Under the pieces are notes generated by a model. The model was not told where the DNA came from. It saw only the letters and a list, made by a program, of their open reading frames with translations, and did not search any database. A DNA stretch of 46,591 nt from Lachnospiraceae bacterium NK4A179 (lineage in GTDB: Bacteria; Bacillota; Clostridia; Lachnospirales; Lachnospiraceae), in assembly GCA_000421045.1 (NCBI GenBank), contig ATWC01000025.1:1-46591 (forward strand). The letters are read 5' to 3'. Of this stretch, positions 14,407-46,591 are shown piece after piece; position 1 is the stretch's first letter; every line of letters starts with the position of its first letter. The translations under genes were made by a program, and so were the position numbers.

Positions 14407-15306
14407 ATGTCAAAAACAAGAACAAAAATTTCATTAAGAAGTACATTGAAGGAGATCAGGCCGGTTAATATCCTCATGCTTTTTATTGCAGGGATTATAA
14501 ATTCTTTTGGCGTTACAATGTTTCTGTTTCCGGTGAAGCTTTACGATAGTGGAATATCGGGCTTATCAATGCTGCTGGATCAGCTGACTCCGGATTGCTT
14601 AACACTTTCACTTTTTCTGATCATTATCAATGTACCGATATTTGTTTTTGGCCTTAAGAGACAGGGGGTTACTTTTACCATATATTCGATTTTTGCCGTA
14701 GTGGTTTACTCACTTGCATCGTTTATGATCATGGATGTACTTCCGGTTGATGTTTCGTTTATTTCACCTCTTGCGGGATCGGATTTGCTACTGTGTGCTG
14801 TTTTCGGCGGAGTTATATCCGGTGTGGGAAGTGGTATGACAATTCGCTTTGGTGGAGCGATCGATGGTATAGATGTTCTCTCTGTAATATTTGCCCGAAG
14901 AATAGGCATTTCCATCGGAACATTTGTGATGCTGTTTAATACTCTTCTGTACACAATATGCGGGATCGCAATTCAGAGTTGGATTTTGCCTTTATATTCT
15001 ATTGTTACATACTATGTTGGGTCGAGAACCGTGGATTTTATTACGGAGGGGTTTGATAGGGCAAAATGTGCAATGATTGTTACGGTTAAGGCAAATGAGA
15101 TATCGGACGCCTTATCCGAGCATTTTGAGTCGAGTGGTACTATTGTAAAGGCAATCGGTGGATACTCAAAGGAAGATAAGGAAATTATTTGTTTTATAGT
15201 GAACCGCTTTCAGATCAACAAATTGAAAAATATAGTGCATGATATAGATAAGGGTGCATTCATTTCACTACAGGATGTGGCTGATATAATAAAAAATCAT
15301 GAATGA
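14407..15306 (+). CDS. YitT family membrane protein (DUF161/DUF2179)
   Basis: 299 residues. The N-terminal 200 residues contain about six membrane segments with YitT-type motifs (INSFGVTMFLFPVKLYDSGISGLSMLLDQLT; GGVISGVGSGMTIRFGGAIDGIDVLS). The C-terminal DUF2179 domain follows (EGFDRAKCAMIVTVKANEISDAL...GTIVKAIGGYSKEDKEIICFIV). AAGGGGAG precedes ATG 14407, and the longer open frame from 14293 overlaps the previous gene and lacks a ribosome binding site. The transported substrate of the family is not established. It is the last gene of the operon. Confidence 0.93.
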   Translation: MSKTRTKISLRSTLKEIRPVNILMLFIAGIINSFGVTMFLFPVKLYDSGISGLSMLLDQLTPDCLTLSLFLIIINVPIFVFGLKRQGVTFTIYSIFAVVVYSLASFMIMDVLPVDVSFISPLAGSDLLLCAVFGGVISGVGSGMTIRFGGAIDGIDVLSVIFARRIGISIGTFVMLFNTLLYTICGIAIQSWILPLYSIVTYYVGSRTVDFITEGFDRAKCAMIVTVKANEISDALSEHFESSGTIVKAIGGYSKEDKEIICFIVNRFQINKLKNIVHDIDKGAFISLQDVADIIKNHE

Positions 15307-15353
15307 AATATACAAATGGCTCTCGTATGGGTGCGAGTCCTTAGTCTACTCGA

Positions 15354-15395
15354 CTAACCGTATGGAAATCTATACGGTTAGAAATATCTTTACTT
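15354..15395 (+). terminator. Probable terminator behind the YitT gene
   Basis: A perfect 10-bp stem, CTAACCGTAT/ATACGGTTAG (15354-15363 with 15372-15381), is followed after AAATATC by a T-rich stretch. The T-run is displaced, so efficiency is uncertain. 15396-15530 shows nothing recognisable. Confidence 0.6.
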
Positions 15396-15530
15396 TTTTC
15401 TTTGTTGTTATATATTGTCAGTTGTATTTTACGAAAGTTCTATACAAAGTTCATTTTGAAATGGCTGTTCTTTCTGGGACAGCTTGAAAATTCCTAAAAT
15501 TATAGGCAAAAAAGGGTCAAAAATGACAGA

Positions 15531-15760
15531 TTATGTGAGCAGTGGCTTTTTTGAGCTACTATTCGCGTAGTGATAAGCATGATATTTATGGCGTCTACGT
15601 GAGATATTGCTCTCAATTATTGTGGACCCGTAGAAATAAATTAATTCTGGGGAAAAATACGTGAGAAGAGGTTTGCTAACAGAGATGTATCACGTAGAGT
15701 GCCAGAATATCATTGCGAAACTACGTGATAAAAGTCAAAAGATAAAGTGTAGTCACGTAG
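15531..15760. repeat. Phased array of eight alternating 8-bp motifs (CTACGTGA / TCACGTAG)
   Basis: The motif CTACGTGA and its reverse complement alternate strictly. Positions and sequence: 15531 TTATGTGA, 15563 TCGCGTAG, 15595 CTACGTGA, 15626 ACCCGTAG, 15657 ATACGTGA, 15690 TCACGTAG, 15721 CTACGTGA, 15753 TCACGTAG. Start-to-start distances are 32, 32, 31, 31, 33, 31 and 32 bp, i.e. three helical turns. The two most distal copies and the one at 15626 are degenerate. The intervening 23-25 bp are unrelated to each other. The last copy is about 10 bp before an AAAGGAG ribosome binding site. It could be a binding array for an oligomeric DNA-binding protein or a chain of RNA hairpins. Function unknown. 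Confidence 0.85.
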
Positions 15761-15782
15761 ATTTGAATAAAGGAGTTTGGTG

Positions 15783-15839
15783 ATGCAGAATTACAAGGAA
15801 GAATTGGAAAAACAAATACGCCAAGGGAATGCATGGTAA
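15783..15839 (+). pseudogene. Truncated 18-codon ORF behind the motif array
   Basis: AAAGGAG at 15769-15775 precedes ATG 15783, giving MQNYKEELEKQIRQGNAW and then TAA. The start region looks like that of a normal gene, but the frame ends within 18 codons and the sequence changes to a more GC-rich, oppositely oriented esterase gene only 10 bp later. I read it as the 5' stump of a gene lost by recombination; a genuine short peptide is the alternative. The family is not recognisable. Confidence 0.45.
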
Positions 15840-15849
15840 TCGTTCCGGA

Positions 15850-16686
15850 TTACGAATTCTCCACAAAGCTTAAGAACCTGTCTACGGTTTTGTCTTCGCT
15901 GCGTCCGAACAGGAAGCAGCCTGCGGTATACCAGGAGTGCGTGTTTCTTTTATCCTCAACCTCATAGATACTGCACTTGTTGCCCACGGACTCGGCCTTT
16001 CTTGCAAAGTCTTCGGCGCACTCGAATTCAAGGAGGCCGTCGTGCCTGCTCTGTATCAGGAGCATAGGTATATTGCTGCTCTCCATGAGCGACACCGGCT
16101 CCGCCTGTACACGGTCGTACCCCTTCTCGAAAAGCATCCCCAGCAGCATTTTTATCGTCATGCCCTGACTTTCTCTGAAGCTGAACGGGCCACCGACGCC
16201 TATGTATCCGATTACACCTGAGATGTCGACGTTATACTCCTGCTGGACCTTCTTGCTGTAGCAAAGAATCGATGACAGATGCGCGCCCGCTGAAGGACCG
16301 GAAAGTATTATCCTTGAAGTGTCTATTCCCTTGCCCTTAAGATGATTCACGGCGGCGTTAAAAGCTGCACATGTGTCTTCTATCTGCACAGGATATTTGT
16401 TCTTGGGAGAGAGCCTGTACCCGAGTGAGACGAAGCGGTAACCTTCGCGCGCAATATTCTGTCCGACGAAGTCGAAGAACTTCGGATTGCCGGCATTCCA
16501 GCCGCCGCCGTGAACCCACACGATGATCTTATCGCTCACGGGAGTCTTGGGCTCGTAGTAATAGAAGTACTGTTCCTTATCGCTCCCGTAGTCCACGCGC
16601 TCCGGAACGATCTCCTTCTTCGTCTTAAAGAGCATCCTGTAATACATAGGGTAGTAGCTTAAGTTCTCTCTGATGAAATCGATCAT
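15850..16686 (-). CDS. Alpha/beta hydrolase (carboxylesterase/HSL-type)
   Basis: A 278-residue cytoplasmic esterase-like protein. The oxyanion-hole motif HGGGW is at 59-63, the nucleophile elbow GPSAG has Ser132, and Asp216 (SRHDG) and His250 (NTHSW) complete the triad. Motifs fit the hormone-sensitive-lipase type of acyl esterases; the natural substrate cannot be told. It lies 17 bp behind the TetR gene and shares its promoter. Codon use is visibly more GC-rich than in neighbouring genes (many GCG, CGC, CCG codons), suggesting acquisition. Confidence 0.9.
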   Translation of the reverse strand: MIDFIRENLSYYPMYYRMLFKTKKEIVPERVDYGSDKEQYFYYYEPKTPVSDKIIVWVHGGGWNAGNPKFFDFVGQNIAREGYRFVSLGYRLSPKNKYPVQIEDTCAAFNAAVNHLKGKGIDTSRIILSGPSAGAHLSSILCYSKKVQQEYNVDISGVIGYIGVGGPFSFRESQGMTIKMLLGMLFEKGYDRVQAEPVSLMESSNIPMLLIQSRHDGLLEFECAEDFARKAESVGNKCSIYEVEDKRNTHSWYTAGCFLFGRSEDKTVDRFLSFVENS

Positions 16687-40150: not shown

Positions 40151-43100
40151 ATGGCAGAAAAGTATTATGTGGGGCTTGATTTAGGTACTAATTCGATTGG
40201 ATGGGCTGTTACAGATGAAAGATATAGAATTCTTAGAAAAAAGGGTAAAGACATGTGGGGTGCCAGGCTTTTTAATGAAGCAGAGTCTGCTGCGGGAAGG
40301 AGGACTGCCAGGGTAGCGCGAAGGAGACTCGAAAGACAGAAGGCTAGGGTTGGGTATCTTAAAAAGGTGTTTGCGCCATATTTATCCGAGGTGGATCCTG
40401 GTTTTCTTCAGAGACTGGAAGATAGCCGTTTTTTTGAAGAAGATAAAACAGAAAAACAGAAATATGCGTTATTTTCTGATAAAGATTATACAGATAGGGA
40501 TTATCTAAAAAAATATCCGACAATATTTCATTTGAGGAGTGAATTGCTGGAATCAAAGGAGCCTCATGATATTAGGCTGGTATTTTTAGCTGTTCTTAAT
40601 ATTTTTATTCATAGAGGTCATTTCCTTAACCAGGGGCTGAAAGAGGGGACGCTTGGAGATATTAGGGAATGGATGAAAGTGCTTGATGAGAATCTTGAAA
40701 TGCTTTATCAGGACCGAGATTGGCATATGGCTGTTAACATTGAAGAGCAGCAAAGAATCTTGTCTTCAAAGGAGCTGACAGCAACAGCAAAACTTGAAAA
40801 ACTGTTATCGACCGTAGGAATTGAGAAGAAAGATAAAGATAATAAACCTCTGATAGAAATATACAAGCTAATATGTGGGCTAAAGGGAACCTTGGCTGTA
40901 GCTTTTGATGGTGAGATAACAGATGAAGAAAATTTAAAGTTTTCAGTCTCATTTCGTGATAGTGCCTATGAAGAAAATGAGAGAAAAGCAGAGGATCTTC
41001 TGGGAGAGACTGCCTTTGAGACATTTAAGGTGCTGAAGGAAATACATGATTGGGGTGTGCTTTCATCAATAATGAAAGGTGATGAAAAAACATATTCCTA
41101 TATCTCACTTGCCAAAGTAGATATGTATGAGAAACATAAGAAGGATCTAAAAGTACTTAAAAAGGTGATAAAGACATATAAGGCAGATGATTATAATCGT
41201 CTGTTCAGAAGTATGGAGGATAATACATACAGTGCTTACGTAGGGTCAGTAAATTATAAAAACAGAAAGATAAGACGTGGTGCAAAAAGTGATGCATTTA
41301 TTCCCGGTATCAAAAAAATAGTAGAAGAGATTTACAAATCGAATCCGGACAGTGATTGCGAGTATATATTAAATGAGATTTCCAAGGATAATTTTCTGCC
41401 TAAATTGCTTACGACGGCCAATGGTGTAATCCCTAATCAGTTGTATGCAGCAGAATTACGCAAGATACTCGATAATGCTTCCGAGTATCTTCCTTTCCTT
41501 AACGAGATAAGTGAAGATAAAAAAGGCTTGAGCATTAAAGAACAGCTTATAGCACTTTTTAAGTTCCAGATTCCATATTATGTGGGACCTTTAAAACGAT
41601 CAGAGAGTGGAAAGGCTTGGGTTGTCAGAAAGAATGACGGTACAGTTTATCCCTGGAATATAGATGATATGGTTGATATGCCGGCCACGTCGGAAGAGTT
41701 TATAAAAAATCTTATAAACGATTGTACTTACATAGAAGGGGAGAAGGTTCTCCCTCGGAATTCGCTTTTATTTGAAAAATATAAAGTCCTTAATGAATTA
41801 AATAATCTTAAGGTTAACGAACAAAAAATATCTGTGGAATTGAAACAAGATATTTTTATAAATTTATTTAGGAAAAATGGTAAAAAGGTTACCAATAAGA
41901 GTCTGCTGTCGTTTCTGAAAAGTAGAGGCATTATTGAGGCCAAAGCAACAGACGACTGTCTTAGCGGGTATGACAAGGAACTAGGTGGATTTACCGGAAC
42001 ACTTTCGAATTATGAAAAGTTTAAGCAGATATTCGACACAGAGGTGCTTACTGATCGTCAGATCGAGATTGCTGAAGATGTGATCTATTATTCTACGGTT
42101 TATGGGGATTCAAGGTCATATTTGAAAACAATACTGAGTGATAAATATGGCGATGTTTTTGATAAAAAACAGCTTGATAGATTAATCGGAATAAAGTTTA
42201 AAGATTGGGCAACCGTTTCCAAAGAGTTTTTACAGCTTCAGGCGCCCGAAAAGATGAACGGGGAAGTGGTTACGATAATATCTGCGTTATGGAATACAAA
42301 TATGAACCTGATGCAGATCATCAATGCTCCAGAGTATGGCTTTGCAGATGAACTTTCGGAAAAAAGAAAGAAACTTAGTAAAACACTTACAGAGATAACA
42401 TATGAAGATATAGAAGATTCGTATATGAATGCTCCTGTAAGGCGAATGGTATGGCAGACTATACGAATACTTCAGGAAATTGTTGGCATTATGGGGAGTG
42501 AACCCGAAAAAGTCTTTGTCGAGATGGCAAGATATGAAGGGCAGAAGGGGAGGAAAGGCCGTAAGGATAGCAGGAAGAAAAAACTGATGGCGCTGTATAA
42601 AAAATGTGAGGATGATGAAAAAAATTTAGTGACAGAGATAGAGCGTAGAGATGAGAAAGATTTCCGGATAAAGAAATTGTATCTATATTATTTGCAACGT
42701 TGTAAATGTATGTATTCAGGAAGGCCTATCGATCCTGAAAAACTGCTAGATGATAATTATTATGATATAGATCATATTTATCCAAGACATTATGTAAAGG
42801 ATGACAGCTTAGAGAATAACCTTGTTTTAGTAGAGTCAAAATATAATCGTGACAAGTCCGACGACCTGCTTGGAGAAGATATTCGGATGAAAATGAAGGA
42901 TGAATGGAAGGATTTGCTTGATAGAGGCTTTATTAATAATACTAAGTATGCACGCCTTATGAGAAGAGAGGCGTTTACTGATGAGGAATTCGCTACATTT
43001 ATAGAACGCCAGATGGTTGAGACCGGTCAAGGAACCAGAGAGGTTACAAGGATACTTGGTGAAGCCTTGGGTAACACGGGTGAAAATCATAAGGTGATTT

Positions 43101-44308
43101 TTGTGAAAGCCGGTTTGGTAAGCCAGTTTAGAAAATATAATGCAGATGCAGGCTGCCCGGCATTCGTAAAAAGCAGGATAATCAATGACCATCATCATGC
43201 GAAGGATGCTTATTTGAATATAGTGGTAGGAAATGTCTATTATACTAAATTCACTATGAACCCTATAAACTATATCAAGGAATTAAGAAATAAAAAAAAT
43301 CCGACGAAAAATGATAATTATCATATGGATATAGAAAAGCTTTTCGATCGCTTGACGGAAAGAAATGGTTATGTGGCCTGGAATCCTGATGAGGACAGGA
43401 TAGTTGTAAGAAAAATGATGGAGAAAAACTCTCCGATCATTACAAAAAGAACATATATGAATCATGGCCCTATATCTAAACTTAATCCTATATCACCTAA
43501 AGAATTTGGAAAAGCTGGTGGAAAAAGTTATTTGCCATTAAAAACATCGGATCAGCGCTTGATCAATACTGAAAGGTATGGTGGCTATTCGGATGTTAAG
43601 GGAGCATATTTCTTTTTGGTTGAGCATACTGTAAAGAAGAAGAGAATACGGACCATAGAGCCTGTTTATGTCTATATGACAGAAAAAATGTCCGGAAAAG
43701 AGCATTTGGAAGAATACTGTCGAGAACAATTGGGATACACGGATCCTGATGTAAGACTGGAAAAAATCCTTATGAATAGTTTGCTGAAAGTGAATGGGTT
43801 CAATCTATATCTTACCGCAAGAACCGGTAATTCTTTAGCGGTTTGTAATGCAGAGCAGCTGACTTTGGATATGGCAAAAGCCGCGTATACAAAGACTATA
43901 GCAAAAGCGATAGAGGAAAAAGCTTCGGAGGAGTATCTTCGCAAAATGCACGGAAAAAGTGCTGCAGTTATCACATGTGAGAATAATTTAGAATTATACG
44001 AAGCATTATGTGATAAACATAATAAAGGGATTTATTCCATAAAACCTACTTCTATAGGAGCTGTGATAGAGAAAGGTAAAGAATCTTTTAAGGTACTTGA
44101 TTTGGTTGATCAGGTATATGTACTAAATCAGATATTAATTGCAACGCAGTTGTTGAATAATGGGGTTGATCTTTCTTTGATAGGTGGTAGTTCATCTGTG
44201 GGAAAGACAAGAATTAATAAAAATATAACGGGTAATAGGGAAATAAAATTGATCGATCAGTCAGTTACAGGGCTTTATGAGCGGGAAATTGACCTGCTTA
44301 CCATATGA
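40151..44308 (+). CDS. cas9: CRISPR-associated endonuclease Cas9 (type II-A)
   Basis: 1385 residues, the large Cas9 size class. RuvC-I is YYVGLDLGTNSIGWAV with Asp10; an Arg-rich bridge helix (RRTARVARRRLERQKAR) follows near 51-67; RuvC-II is KVFVEMARYEG with Glu791; HNH is YDIDHIYPRHYV with His875; RuvC-III is DHHHAKDAYLN with His1016 and Asp1019. All catalytic residues are present, so double-strand cleavage guided by crRNA:tracrRNA is expected. The C-terminal part (about 1100-1385) would hold the PAM-interacting domain; PAM preference cannot be read. AAGGGG precedes ATG 40151. The stop overlaps cas1 as ATGA. Confidence 0.98.
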   Translation: MAEKYYVGLDLGTNSIGWAVTDERYRILRKKGKDMWGARLFNEAESAAGRRTARVARRRLERQKARVGYLKKVFAPYLSEVDPGFLQRLEDSRFFEEDKTEKQKYALFSDKDYTDRDYLKKYPTIFHLRSELLESKEPHDIRLVFLAVLNIFIHRGHFLNQGLKEGTLGDIREWMKVLDENLEMLYQDRDWHMAVNIEEQQRILSSKELTATAKLEKLLSTVGIEKKDKDNKPLIEIYKLICGLKGTLAVAFDGEITDEENLKFSVSFRDSAYEENERKAEDLLGETAFETFKVLKEIHDWGVLSSIMKGDEKTYSYISLAKVDMYEKHKKDLKVLKKVIKTYKADDYNRLFRSMEDNTYSAYVGSVNYKNRKIRRGAKSDAFIPGIKKIVEEIYKSNPDSDCEYILNEISKDNFLPKLLTTANGVIPNQLYAAELRKILDNASEYLPFLNEISEDKKGLSIKEQLIALFKFQIPYYVGPLKRSESGKAWVVRKNDGTVYPWNIDDMVDMPATSEEFIKNLINDCTYIEGEKVLPRNSLLFEKYKVLNELNNLKVNEQKISVELKQDIFINLFRKNGKKVTNKSLLSFLKSRGIIEAKATDDCLSGYDKELGGFTGTLSNYEKFKQIFDTEVLTDRQIEIAEDVIYYSTVYGDSRSYLKTILSDKYGDVFDKKQLDRLIGIKFKDWATVSKEFLQLQAPEKMNGEVVTIISALWNTNMNLMQIINAPEYGFADELSEKRKKLSKTLTEITYEDIEDSYMNAPVRRMVWQTIRILQEIVGIMGSEPEKVFVEMARYEGQKGRKGRKDSRKKKLMALYKKCEDDEKNLVTEIERRDEKDFRIKKLYLYYLQRCKCMYSGRPIDPEKLLDDNYYDIDHIYPRHYVKDDSLENNLVLVESKYNRDKSDDLLGEDIRMKMKDEWKDLLDRGFINNTKYARLMRREAFTDEEFATFIERQMVETGQGTREVTRILGEALGNTGENHKVIFVKAGLVSQFRKYNADAGCPAFVKSRIINDHHHAKDAYLNIVVGNVYYTKFTMNPINYIKELRNKKNPTKNDNYHMDIEKLFDRLTERNGYVAWNPDEDRIVVRKMMEKNSPIITKRTYMNHGPISKLNPISPKEFGKAGGKSYLPLKTSDQRLINTERYGGYSDVKGAYFFLVEHTVKKKRIRTIEPVYVYMTEKMSGKEHLEEYCREQLGYTDPDVRLEKILMNSLLKVNGFNLYLTARTGNSLAVCNAEQLTLDMAKAAYTKTIAKAIEEKASEEYLRKMHGKSAAVITCENNLELYEALCDKHNKGIYSIKPTSIGAVIEKGKESFKVLDLVDQVYVLNQILIATQLLNNGVDLSLIGGSSSVGKTRINKNITGNREIKLIDQSVTGLYEREIDLLTI

Positions 44309-45171
44309 GCTGGCGAACAGTTGTAATAACTGAAAATGCCAAACTTGATTATCAGGTTGGCTATATGATAGTACGAAGTAAGGATACTGTCCGTATTCAT
44401 TTGTCTGAAATTGAGACCCTTATTGTAGAATCGACGGCAGTATCCTTGACTTCATATTTAATGAGTGAACTGATGAAGAATAAGACAAAAGTAATATTCT
44501 GTGATGAAAAGCGCAATCCTTCTTCAGAACTCTTGCCATATTATGGAAGCCATGATACCAGTGCAAAAATACGCAATCAGATTGCATGGACAGAGGAAAA
44601 AAAGGGGGAAGTCTGGACTGAAATCGTTTCGGAAAAGATACGACAGCAGGCAATAACACTGGAACATCATGGTAAAGCTGAAGCCGGATTATTAAGGGGG
44701 TATTTAGAAGAAATAGAGTTCGGGGATAAAAGCAACAGGGAAGGACATTCTGCAAAAGTATATTTTAATGCTTTATTTGGGAAAAAATTCAGCCGGAAAG
44801 ATGATAATTCTGTTAACGCTGCGCTGAATTATGGCTATTCGTTATTGTTATCATCATTTACGAGAGAAGTGGTTGCAAATGGATACATTACTCAAATTGG
44901 GCTATTTCATGACAATATGTTTAATCCTTATAATCTGGCCAGTGATCTTATGGAACCCTTTAGACCTATTGTAGACGACATGGTTTTAAATCTTATGCCT
45001 GACAAGTTTGAGGTGGAAGAGAAACACGAAATGATACAACTATTTAATGTTGAGGTTACAATAAATGGGAGAAGGGAATATCTGCCCAATGCTGTAAGGA
45101 TTTATTCTAAAAGTGTTTTTGATACATTAGATGATGCCGGCACCGGATGCCTAAGGTTTTACGAAAGATGA
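44305..45171 (+). CDS. cas1: CRISPR integrase Cas1 (type II)
   Basis: 288 residues, type II size. The metal-dependent integrase residues are visible as Glu146 (REGHSAKVYF), His202 (IGLFHDN) and Glu217 (DLMEPFRP), matching the E/H/E set of the family. With Cas2 it inserts new spacers at the leader end; in II-A systems Csn2 and Cas9 also take part. Overlaps cas9 and cas2 by 4 bp each. Confidence 0.97.
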   Translation: MSWRTVVITENAKLDYQVGYMIVRSKDTVRIHLSEIETLIVESTAVSLTSYLMSELMKNKTKVIFCDEKRNPSSELLPYYGSHDTSAKIRNQIAWTEEKKGEVWTEIVSEKIRQQAITLEHHGKAEAGLLRGYLEEIEFGDKSNREGHSAKVYFNALFGKKFSRKDDNSVNAALNYGYSLLLSSFTREVVANGYITQIGLFHDNMFNPYNLASDLMEPFRPIVDDMVLNLMPDKFEVEEKHEMIQLFNVEVTINGRREYLPNAVRIYSKSVFDTLDDAGTGCLRFYER

Positions 45172-45488
45172 CATATCGTTTTATGAGAGTAATTGTTATG
45201 TTTGATCTGCCGGTTTTAACCGTTGCTGAAAGAAGAGAATACCGATTATTTCGGAAATATTTGATAAAAAGTGGTTTTATCATGATGCAGGAAAGTGTAT
45301 ATACGAAATTAGTGCAGAACCAGACAGCAGCGGATTGGGTGATTCAGGGGCTTCATAAGAATAAACCAACGAGCGGGCTGGTTCAGGCTTTGAGGGTGAC
45401 AGAAAAGCAGTTTTCCAAAATGGATTTCATTATTGGACATATCGAAACGGATGTTCTGGAAAGTGATGAGAGGATTGTATTTCTATGA
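45168..45488 (+). CDS. cas2: CRISPR-associated Cas2
   Basis: 106 residues starting MTYRFMRVIVMFDLPV, with the conserved Asp13 after the first strand, and RKYLIKSGFIMMQESVYTKL. It is the structural centre of the Cas1-Cas2 integrase. The frame is open from 45147, but the ATG at 45168 overlapping the cas1 stop (ATGA) gives the family N-terminus. Confidence 0.96.
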   Translation: MTYRFMRVIVMFDLPVLTVAERREYRLFRKYLIKSGFIMMQESVYTKLVQNQTAADWVIQGLHKNKPTSGLVQALRVTEKQFSKMDFIIGHIETDVLESDERIVFL

Positions 45489-46156
45489 TCATGAGTATAC
45501 CGTCAAAACAGCTTTCATTAGATCTTTCATCAGAATATATTTCGACAATAGTTGCTGAATCCGGAGATGTTATGTCTGAAATTGTTTTGGGAATTTCTGA
45601 ACAGTATGAAGGAGGGGAGCCAAGTGTTGTGATATCGGAGGATAACAAGATTTTAAAGCTGTCTCAGATGATGTCGTTCATTCCGGATCCTCTTCATGTA
45701 GATATTAATAGTCGGCCAATGTTAAAAAAGCTATATACTGATTTACAGGAAATAGGAAACAGACAGCTGGAAAAAATAAATGAAATAAACAGGCTGGCTA
45801 TAGATTTTCTGGATGATTTATCAGTCAGGTCAAACTACAACAATATAACATATAATTTGGAATTATCTGTAGAGTCGTTATTGAAAATGTACGAAGTTAA
45901 AATAGAGCCTTTATATGGTTCAATGTCTGACCGGTTATCGGAATATGTAAAGGCTGTGTCAAATCTGTTAGGTGTTAAGGTGTTTTGCTTTGTGAATCTT
46001 AAAGCTTTTCTATCTGAACAGAGGTTAAATGAGCTATTTACAATGACACGCTATTATAATGTTAATCTTATACTTATAGAATATAGAGAAAGAAATGAGA
46101 TCTGCCCCGAAAAAAGCTATATTATTGACAAAGATCAATGCCTAATAGTTAAATAA
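45485..46156 (+). CDS. csn2: CRISPR adaptation protein Csn2 (type II-A marker)
   Basis: 223 residues. Position (last cas gene, before the array), size and the pattern of an alpha/beta head and a long helical leg (KLYTDLQEIGNRQLEKINEINRLAIDFLDDL), ending with VKVFCFVNLKAFLSEQRLNELFTMTRYYNVNLILIEY, fit the short (about 220 residue) Csn2 group. Csn2 forms a ring on DNA ends during spacer capture. Overlaps cas2 by 4 bp. Confidence 0.92.
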   Translation: MIMSIPSKQLSLDLSSEYISTIVAESGDVMSEIVLGISEQYEGGEPSVVISEDNKILKLSQMMSFIPDPLHVDINSRPMLKKLYTDLQEIGNRQLEKINEINRLAIDFLDDLSVRSNYNNITYNLELSVESLLKMYEVKIEPLYGSMSDRLSEYVKAVSNLLGVKVFCFVNLKAFLSEQRLNELFTMTRYYNVNLILIEYRERNEICPEKSYIIDKDQCLIVK

Positions 46157-46234
46157 ATGGCAGTTTTTTGATGGAAAACCTTGGGTTAGGTTTTCACAAA
46201 AAATACAAGGCATCGGTGAGAACCTTAATTTGAG
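46157..46234 (+). promoter_or_regulatory. CRISPR leader with ATTTGAG anchoring motif
   Basis: 78 bp between csn2 and the first repeat. It contains an AAAACCT/AGGTTTT hairpin (46175-46194) and a weak promoter candidate, TTGGGT (46181-46186), N17, TACAAG (46204-46209). The last seven bases before repeat 1 are ATTTGAG (46228-46234), identical to the leader-anchoring sequence shown to fix spacer insertion in streptococcal II-A systems. Confidence 0.85.
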
Positions 46235-46591
46235 GTTTGAGAGCCTTGTAAAACTGAATATCTCTCAAACTTTTTAAAGTCTATGACAGTCTGGGTATTC
46301 GTTTGAGAGCCTTGTAAAACTGAATATCTCTCAAACAAAATATGGCAATTGGCGCATTGATTTTAGGTTTGAGAGCCTTGTAAAACTGAATATCTCTCAA
46401 ACAATAGCCTTAATCCAAGCCTCGCGCCATGGTTTGAGAGCCTTGTAAAACTGAATATCTCTCAAACTAACTTTATATTAGGCTGTACAAAAGGAACGTT
46501 TGAGAGCCTTGTAAAACTGAATATCTCTCAAACTAATTCCTCTGCTGTTGTGCATTCTGTAAGTTTGAGAGCCTTGTAAAACTGAATATCT
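46235..46591 (+). CRISPR. Type II-A CRISPR array (5 spacers visible, runs off the window)
   Basis: 36-bp repeat starting GTTTGAGAGCC and ending ATCTCTCAAAC, with 9-bp palindromic ends. Repeats start at 46235, 46301, 46367, 46432, 46498 and 46563; the first five are identical and the sixth is cut by the window end. Spacers: 46271-46300 (30 bp), 46337-46366 (30), 46403-46431 (29), 46468-46497 (30), 46534-46562 (29). The leader-proximal end is at the left, so the spacers seen are the most recent. The 30-nt spacer length is usual for II-A. Confidence 0.99.

Follow-up and report, generated by a model that had tools for sequence, protein, structure and literature searches.

We found that an array of eight short, alternating sites (positions 15531 to 15760) in the window, a 46,591-nucleotide stretch of DNA from Lachnospiraceae bacterium NK4A179 (contig ATWC01000025.1), is, judging from sequence comparisons, a partial and orphaned copy of a system with two parts, such an array and a nuclease gene. 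The two parts appear to form a REPtron-like repeat system of Clostridia, in which the nuclease would recognize phased sites in double-stranded DNA and the arrays would spread as nonautonomous repeats; we put the probability of this reading at about 0.58. It draws support from the adjacency of arrays to the gene, motif differences between loci, phasing at integral helical turns, conserved residues of catalytic type, and orphan arrays, some of which show homology that is limited to the array.

The window array comprises four +/− units with a unit period of ~63.5 bp (6 helical turns). Relative to CTACGTGA, its plus-strand sites are site 1 (15531 to 15538; TTATGTGA, two mismatches), site 3 (15595 to 15602; CTACGTGA, exact), site 5 (15657 to 15664; ATACGTGA, one mismatch), and site 7 (15721 to 15728; CTACGTGA, exact); between and after them on the minus strand lie site 2 (15563 to 15570; TCGCGTAG, one mismatch), site 4 (15626 to 15633; ACCCGTAG, two mismatches), site 6 (15690 to 15697; TCACGTAG, exact), and site 8 (15753 to 15760; TCACGTAG, exact). 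At the spot equivalent to site 4, an 82% identical copy from the same genome (locus L006) reads TTACGTGC on the plus strand of L006. The first-pass annotation had described eight alternating 8-bp motifs 31 to 33 bp apart, and we confirmed a site at every start it claimed: orientation alternates strictly, and the start-to-start spacings are 32, 32, 31, 31, 33, 31, and 32 bp (mean, 31.7 bp). It had also described a decay of the copies with distance from the ribosome-binding site; this holds roughly, given four perfect copies among the eight (mismatches for sites 1 to 8: 2, 1, 0, 2, 1, 0, 0, and 0), but not for site 3, which is distal yet perfect.

As a word, CTACGTGA is not enriched in the whole window (16 matches with ≤1 mismatch versus 21.6 expected), and thus the special feature of the array is the regular, alternating placement of its sites. 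When this regularity was compared with shuffled sequences, as the first-pass annotation had proposed, the de novo chain score of positions 14950 to 15850 (any motif, ≤1 mismatch) was 3.7, resting on four of the eight sites; none of 400 Markov shuffles exceeded 3.4, and the highest score among 150 other window stretches was 2.7. Decay of four of the eight sites keeps the margin over the shuffles thin; recurrence in other genomes settles the question, and the array is not due to chance. Other features of the window are separate from the array: a type II CRISPR-Cas locus (40151 to 46591) encoding Cas9 (1385 aa), Cas1, and Cas2, with a further ORF at 45485 to 46156 and an array of a 36-bp repeat (GTTTGAGAGCCTTGTAAAACTGAATATCTCTCAAAC) that runs to the window end, and a cluster of six tRNA genes (Asp, Val, Tyr, Met, Phe, and Lys; 411 to 1256) at the window start.

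Arrays like that of the window, with 94 to 96% identity, are present elsewhere in its genome and genus. The genome itself holds three more copies, one 96% identical over the whole array, one 96% identical over a five-site part, and one 82% identical on another contig, with six sites still recognizable. Two of these copies (in L007) align to window positions 15525 to 15768 and 15520 to 15671, which is little beyond the array. One own-genome copy (L006, 1127 to 1856) lies beside a pyruvate formate-lyase-like gene and is nested, by eye, in an inverted repeat of ~700 bp. In a genus sample, 2 of 35 genomes carried a window-type array. A scan of one genome per species (84,980 species) for a three-site pattern matched 60 genome stretches, several per genome in places, against about 3 matches expected by chance (a hand estimate); 59 of the 60 are titled Butyrivibrio, Pseudobutyrivibrio, Lachnospiraceae, or uncultured Clostridiales, and one Planctomycetaceae. 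One IMG/VR contig also carried the pattern. Among these 61 fetched stretches, 54 held an alternating array of at least four sites with a score of ≥9 and 7 held none; comparisons of gene linkage and of sites and spacers used a score of ≥11. A single +/− pair matched 4 of 397 family genomes versus 11 for a reversed control, so one pair alone is no evidence.

The site count was even, with a plus site first and a minus site last, in 54 of 58 arrays lying away from stretch ends (a count that includes earlier loci, four of them double: L010/L064, L011/L071, L012/L069, and L014/L055), which argues that the repeat unit is the +/− pair. The 31 nonredundant arrays share the consensus YTACGTGA, whose TAC rounds to 100%; this consensus is conditional on sites having been admitted at ≤2 mismatches, and site 1 of the window (TTATGTGA) is an exception to TAC. 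Spacers differ widely between array families and are often near copies of one another inside one array.

Of the 61 stretches retrieved by pattern, 17 encode a homolog of a 266-aa protein, directly downstream of the array in 16 of them (the exception is L061); the start codon of this gene follows ~22 bp after the same array in Butyrivibrio relatives. On the plus strand, window positions 15355 to 15819 are 95% identical to a locus of Lachnospiraceae bacterium XPB1003 (L064), where they cover the array region and the beginning of the nuclease gene. The shared sequence includes ~175 bp to the left of the array, and beyond 15819, inside the nuclease gene, the window diverges from L064. A ribosome-binding-site-like AAAGGAG (15769 to 15775, plus strand), common to many relatives that possess the gene, is followed by a stub of 18 codons and a stop (15783 to 15839, plus strand), of which the initial 12 codons (to 15819) agree with intact relatives and the remainder does not. 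By this comparison, the window array is an orphan truncated shortly after the nuclease gene begins, and only a distant homolog of that gene was found in its genome: the sole match to the protein there has 32% identity, and the array score upstream of it is 3.1, below threshold. Internally deleted nuclease genes also occur in L031 and L068, judging by the BLAST pattern. The upstream flank in genome G012 is 95% identical to the window up to about position 15321 and unrelated beyond, and consequently offers no clean empty site. Of nine neighbor proteins examined by eye, six look like guaA products, with the gene ~280 bp ahead of the array (L018, L021, L039, L064, L072, and L073); these neighbors clearly differ among themselves and may be guaA paralogs or mark an integration hot spot. 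The first-pass annotation had overlooked both the partner gene, present in the window as its 12-codon stub, and the dispersed copies; the genome search it proposed, for the pattern and the gene that follows, bears out recurrence of the array and shows the nuclease gene directly after it in 16 of the 61 stretches.

The encoded protein probably combines a DNA-binding N-terminal part with a C-terminal PD-(D/E)XK-like nuclease. The 266-aa protein scores at or above the cutoff of no Pfam or NCBIfam family, and a search of 26 members against both databases found no family that matches more than one member at an E value of 0.1. PADLOC models match its C terminus: PDC-S68 (E value, 3e-26) and HEAT_CxxC_PD-DEXK (E value, 7e-5). 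An AlphaFold model based on 13 sequences (mean pLDDT, 83; pTM, 0.50) consists of a helix (residues 2 to 28), three strands (35 to 42, 45 to 52, and 57 to 60), a second helix (63 to 98), then a linker modeled with less certainty and an alpha/beta domain at the C terminus. With the whole model, the top Foldseek matches in the PDB include DrdV (E value, 0.012), Bax1, and FAN1, all of them PD-(D/E)XK enzymes, along with other folds, none of them at an E value of 0.001; the predicted N-terminal reader gave nothing significant in the same search. An AP2- or integrase-arm-like fold, prompted by the predicted strands and helix, was considered for the N terminus and set aside as conjecture, since Foldseek returned nothing significant. 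The nuclease region is the best-conserved part of the protein in an alignment of 91 sequences, and E163, D194, E209, and H210 are identical in all 91. Taken together, the alignment, the PDC-S68 match, and the model suggest an acidic catalytic set on a restriction-type core, for which the fold evidence is weak; the invariance of these catalytic-type residues makes an active enzyme likely, rather than a repressor with a dead domain.

Homologs (E value, 1e-10) are encoded in 94 of 299 Lachnospiraceae genomes. A sample of the phylum gave matches in 15 of 398 genomes, which outside Lachnospiraceae cover only C-terminal parts, and a sample of the class, searched at an E value of 1e-30, gave matches in 17 of 291, near full length also in four other families (f179, f7, f155, and f3). 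We scanned the 900 bp upstream of 90 homologs de novo for any 8-mer that alternates with its complement at steady spacing (score, ≥4). Such arrays lie upstream of 54 of the 90 genes, downstream of 11, and inside none, and shuffled sequences yielded 0 of 89; the remaining 36 homologs have no upstream array at this threshold. Among the 83 homologs with at least 500 bp of upstream sequence (7 have less), 52 have an upstream array. The 90 homologs are the 30 best matches plus 60 chosen by rank and contig room, and hence not a random sample; two of them, L104 and L109, are one gene, an array-less locus that was fetched twice. The scan settings were chosen after the first arrays had been seen and were applied unchanged to a second set, in which 16 of 24 loci score ≥4, including 12 of 19 from other Clostridia families. 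The motifs beside homologs are mostly different from that of the window (for example, GACACGCA, TACTGCAT, TTACGGTG, GTACGTAG, and TTGGACTA), and at three loci (L092, L124, and L094) one motif forms arrays on both sides of the gene.

Several of these observations bear on a regulatory reading, in which the protein represses its own gene on a cooperative operator array and stays parked there until phage or plasmid entry releases it to cut; orphan arrays would then be coregulated promoters or sponges. The array often occupies the 5′ region of its gene, with ~22 bp to the start codon in window-type loci, which fits this scheme, as would integral-turn phasing (below) if repression is cooperative; the resemblance of the nuclease part to the C terminus of PDC-S68, a candidate defense protein, and one locus (L098) that lies, by eye, between genes for a HerA-like ATPase and a UvrD-like helicase point in the same direction. 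However, the distance from array to gene ranges from about 0 to >500 bp among the scanned homologs, arrays also occur downstream and in stretches without a homolog, and most of the 22 neighbor sequences viewed (of 55 selected) appear by eye to be housekeeping or metabolic. Phage and plasmid records also speak against it: with one tblastn query, >80% of the protein was covered in 1 of 50,697 phage records and in no plasmid record. The three phage records that match are all unannotated and of human fecal origin (one aligns across 94% of the protein, with 36% identity); partial matches, mainly to the C-terminal half, occur in six plasmid records. We keep the operator, which the first-pass annotation had suggested, as a live but rather unlikely rival; autoregulation is compatible with a mobile system, and the two may coexist. 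A phage origin was also considered and rejected, given the single IMG/VR contig with the triple-site pattern, the few phage matches, and a scan of IMG/VR with the protein alignment, which gave 47 pattern stretches but no relative.

The unit periods of the arrays, measured between sites of the same orientation, cluster at 51 to 54, 61 to 64, 71 to 75, and 83 to 87 bp, with single arrays at 94 and 105 bp. For the 54 upstream arrays, phasing at 10.5 bp gave an R of 0.877, on a broad peak (0.867, 0.877, and 0.869 at 10.25, 10.5, and 10.75 bp), and the residual from whole turns was 0.17 ± 0.86 bp; with 12 arrays from other families added (n = 66), R was 0.867, and the best fit in a scan from 8.5 to 13 bp was 10.55 bp. 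Chains from 31 shuffles gave an R of 0.105. Since the loci are not independent, we repeated the test with one array per protein cluster; phasing was kept down to 17 clusters (R = 0.847, P = 5e-6). Thus, units fall on whole helical turns, which argues for a protein on one face of double-stranded DNA and upholds the same-face spacing proposed in the first-pass annotation. Its figure of three turns per site holds for the window-type array and not as a rule: units measure about 5, 6, 7, 8, 9, or 10 turns depending on the locus, and the period and turn-class analyses rule out a fixed three-turn spacing. The turn class follows protein relationship, being shared with the nearest homolog in 40 of 54 arrays versus 17.9 in shuffles. 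Single-site spacing shows no such phasing (R = 0.12, n = 58), which is what inversion of sites within the unit would predict.

These periods also bear on whether the array acts as RNA, either as a chain of hairpins that is processed by or inhibits the protein, as in type III toxin-antitoxin systems, or as a supply of guides. The array does lie directly upstream of the nuclease gene, an 8-bp stem is possible for each +/− unit, and the excess of agreement over shuffled pairs at base 6, though small, is larger within units (0.90; shuffled, 0.85) than between them (0.84; shuffled, 0.81). The most variable base, the first, shows no such excess: agreement is 0.55 (shuffled, 0.44) within the putative stem and 0.60 (shuffled, 0.46) between neighboring units. 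Mismatched pairs, such as CTACGTGA with TCACGTAA, recur along the array in L074; spacers within arrays are often near copies, unlike guides; and unit periods track the DNA helical repeat, which RNA would not. Varying spacing had been taken as a sign of hairpins, and the period analysis overturned this. A search of window positions 15300 to 15900 against Rfam found nothing at the curated threshold (best match, 24.5 bits; cutoff, 70). The hairpin chain envisaged in the first-pass annotation thus finds little support in Rfam or the pair test, and we regard an RNA element as very improbable.

The motif tracks the protein, if weakly. Motif similarity correlated with similarity of the reader part (Mantel r = 0.159, P = 0.0035, n = 47) and of the nuclease part (r = 0.152, P = 0.001); the partial correlations were 0.105 and 0.094, respectively, the reader being no stronger. 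Of four motifs tested in other genera, three also form orphan arrays elsewhere in the same genome. Two of these belong to genome G269, which encodes two nucleases with two motifs; both motifs are found at four locations apiece in this genome and at none in four other genomes, and the orphan arrays fetched have up to 23 sites. Mutual homology of the TTACGGTG arrays of G269 stops within ~26 bp of the outer sites, and such array-limited homology also holds for the copies in L007 from the genome of the window; two GACACGCA stretches of G269 (L177 and L180) match each other also outside the arrays as delimited. The third motif, that of G244, forms 63 exact pairs in its genome, against a single match in one of five other genomes; eight orphan stretches fetched from G244 carry 4 to 17 sites each, none contains a homolog, and by eye the units are more alike within an array than between arrays. 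The motif of G330, the exception, was found solely at its own gene. In one intergenic region of G269 (L176, 2723 to 3179), two different nuclease motifs stand side by side, the second of them drifting.

The arrays apparently also hitchhike. One orphan family, with 12 copies, consists of a miniature element that has a six-site array inside and is bounded, on one side or both, by slightly varying terminal repeats CAATGTCATTTAGATAAG. Identified by eye in L006, L017, L020, L029, L033, L037, L041, L042, L046, L048, and L056, these copies come from Butyrivibrio-titled stretches in eleven cases and from the genome of the window in one (L006). Apparent 9-bp duplications, also scored by eye, are exact in two copies, match at 8 of 9 bases in two, and are poorer or absent in the others. 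Since the element that carries this family has its own terminal repeats, no such nuclease is required for the family to spread. One might then view all of the arrays as passengers or transposase sites of ordinary miniature elements of the DDE type, with the nuclease an accidental neighbor. For the CAATGTCATTTAGATAAG family itself, that view may hold; as an account of the whole system, we hold it to be quite improbable, since such terminal repeats were not seen in the flanks examined of the window copy or the L007 copies and since linkage of the nuclease to different motifs in many genera is hardly accidental. Several copies of the element adjoin GGGGACGGGGT-type repeats. Intergenic GGGGACGGGGT(T) repeats in both orientations, at L007 (7820 to 7940) and at several Butyrivibrio loci, look like another interspersed family.

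Dispersed, phased arrays whose motif is retained where spacers differ might also serve as chromosome-organizing sites of a centromere or nucleoid type, with the nuclease as their binding factor. The distribution described above is patchy for such a role, both for the homolog (94 of 299 family genomes) and for the window-type array (2 of 35 genus genomes), and catalytic-type residues are retained throughout. We found nothing in favor of the centromere-like reading raised in the first-pass annotation, and consider this role scarcely credible.

The REPtron-like reading can be put as a sequence of steps. Its first part would be a single gene for a ~266-aa protein made up of an N-terminal helix, a three-strand-plus-helix region (the probable DNA reader), and the C-terminal PD-(D/E)XK-like nuclease. 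The second would be the array, with short inverted sites that are particular to that protein and with whole-turn units, so that successive units present the same face. We propose that the protein binds successive sites as dimers or as a filament through its N-terminal part and that the nuclease acts on array DNA; repair of the breaks would amplify units in place and copy arrays to new intergenic positions, which would explain both tandem amplification and copying. A stronger version, to which we give slightly less than even odds, is that this is a new class of self-spreading repeats, in which a PD-(D/E)XK nuclease with a fast-changing reader assembles on alternating sites in helical phase and causes the arrays to multiply and disperse through Clostridia genomes. 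If the model is correct, gut Clostridia share a common and so far unnoticed module that couples an unnamed nuclease family to a helically phased DNA architecture. It would make testable an origin of bacterial interspersed repeats without a classical transposase. With the motif varied at most loci and the layout kept, the arrays form a natural series on DNA reading by a small protein, a compact, predicted DNA-binding nuclease whose probable substrate can be read beside its gene.

The first-pass annotation knew of no described element with this layout, and our searches agree: no Rfam, Pfam, or NCBIfam entry matched at its cutoff, and among the open-access titles and opening portions of abstracts listed, none describes a system of array and nuclease. 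Several known systems share individual features with it. CRISPR arrays combine identical repeats and unique spacers with cas genes, whereas here sites invert and spacers are often near copies. ToxIN and other type III toxin-antitoxin systems likewise place a repeat array immediately upstream of a nuclease gene, and ToxIN repeats are direct. The repeats described here are inverted, with little sign of RNA structure or stem covariation, a best Rfam score far below the cutoff (see above), helical phasing, and dispersed orphans; the protein is unrelated, and the ToxN/AbiQ-type endoRNase family is absent among the Pfam and NCBIfam matches listed for the 26 members. In TIGR-Tas, short repeats and spacers are arrayed beside one effector gene, whose product contains a Nop domain. 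Here, no Nop family is among the Pfam matches listed for the 26 members, spacers within an array are often near copies, and phasing follows the DNA helix. The system belongs to none of these three classes. PDC-S68 and the helicase-nuclease proteins share a homologous C-terminal nuclease region with the protein, but the PDC-S68 models span ~1200 positions versus ~266 aa here. Arrays of transposase or replication-initiator sites, such as Tn7 ends and iterons, also repeat short sites for one protein, and some are in helical phase; the present arrays differ in their strict alternation and motif-specific orphans, and no transposase or replication gene was noticed among the neighbors viewed.

The closest parallel is with REPtrons (RAYT/TnpA-REP with REP, REPIN, or BIME). 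Both combine a single chromosomal gene with adjacent, cognate inverted repeats and with orphan copies elsewhere, as found here in the same genome for the three motifs of G269 and G244, with G330 as the exception; in both, repeats vary among lineages in step with the protein, a link that is weak here by the Mantel correlation given above. REPtrons encode an HUH/Y1 transposase, whereas the protein here is a PD-(D/E)XK-like nuclease, and the Y1 transposase family is absent from the Pfam matches listed for the 26 members at an E value of ≤0.1. REP repeats are palindromes of 20 to 40 nt with a GTAG or CGTC tag (PMC3733652 and PMC8266576). REPtron repeats are such palindromes folded as single strands; the sites here are ~7 to 10 bp, lie in arrays of 4 to 31, show little stem covariation, and, given the helical phasing of long arrays, are apparently read as phased double-stranded DNA. 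By these comparisons, the system appears to work like a REPtron yet to stand outside that class in both its enzyme and the structure of its repeats; if our reading is right, it is the nuclease counterpart of the transposase-based REPtrons.
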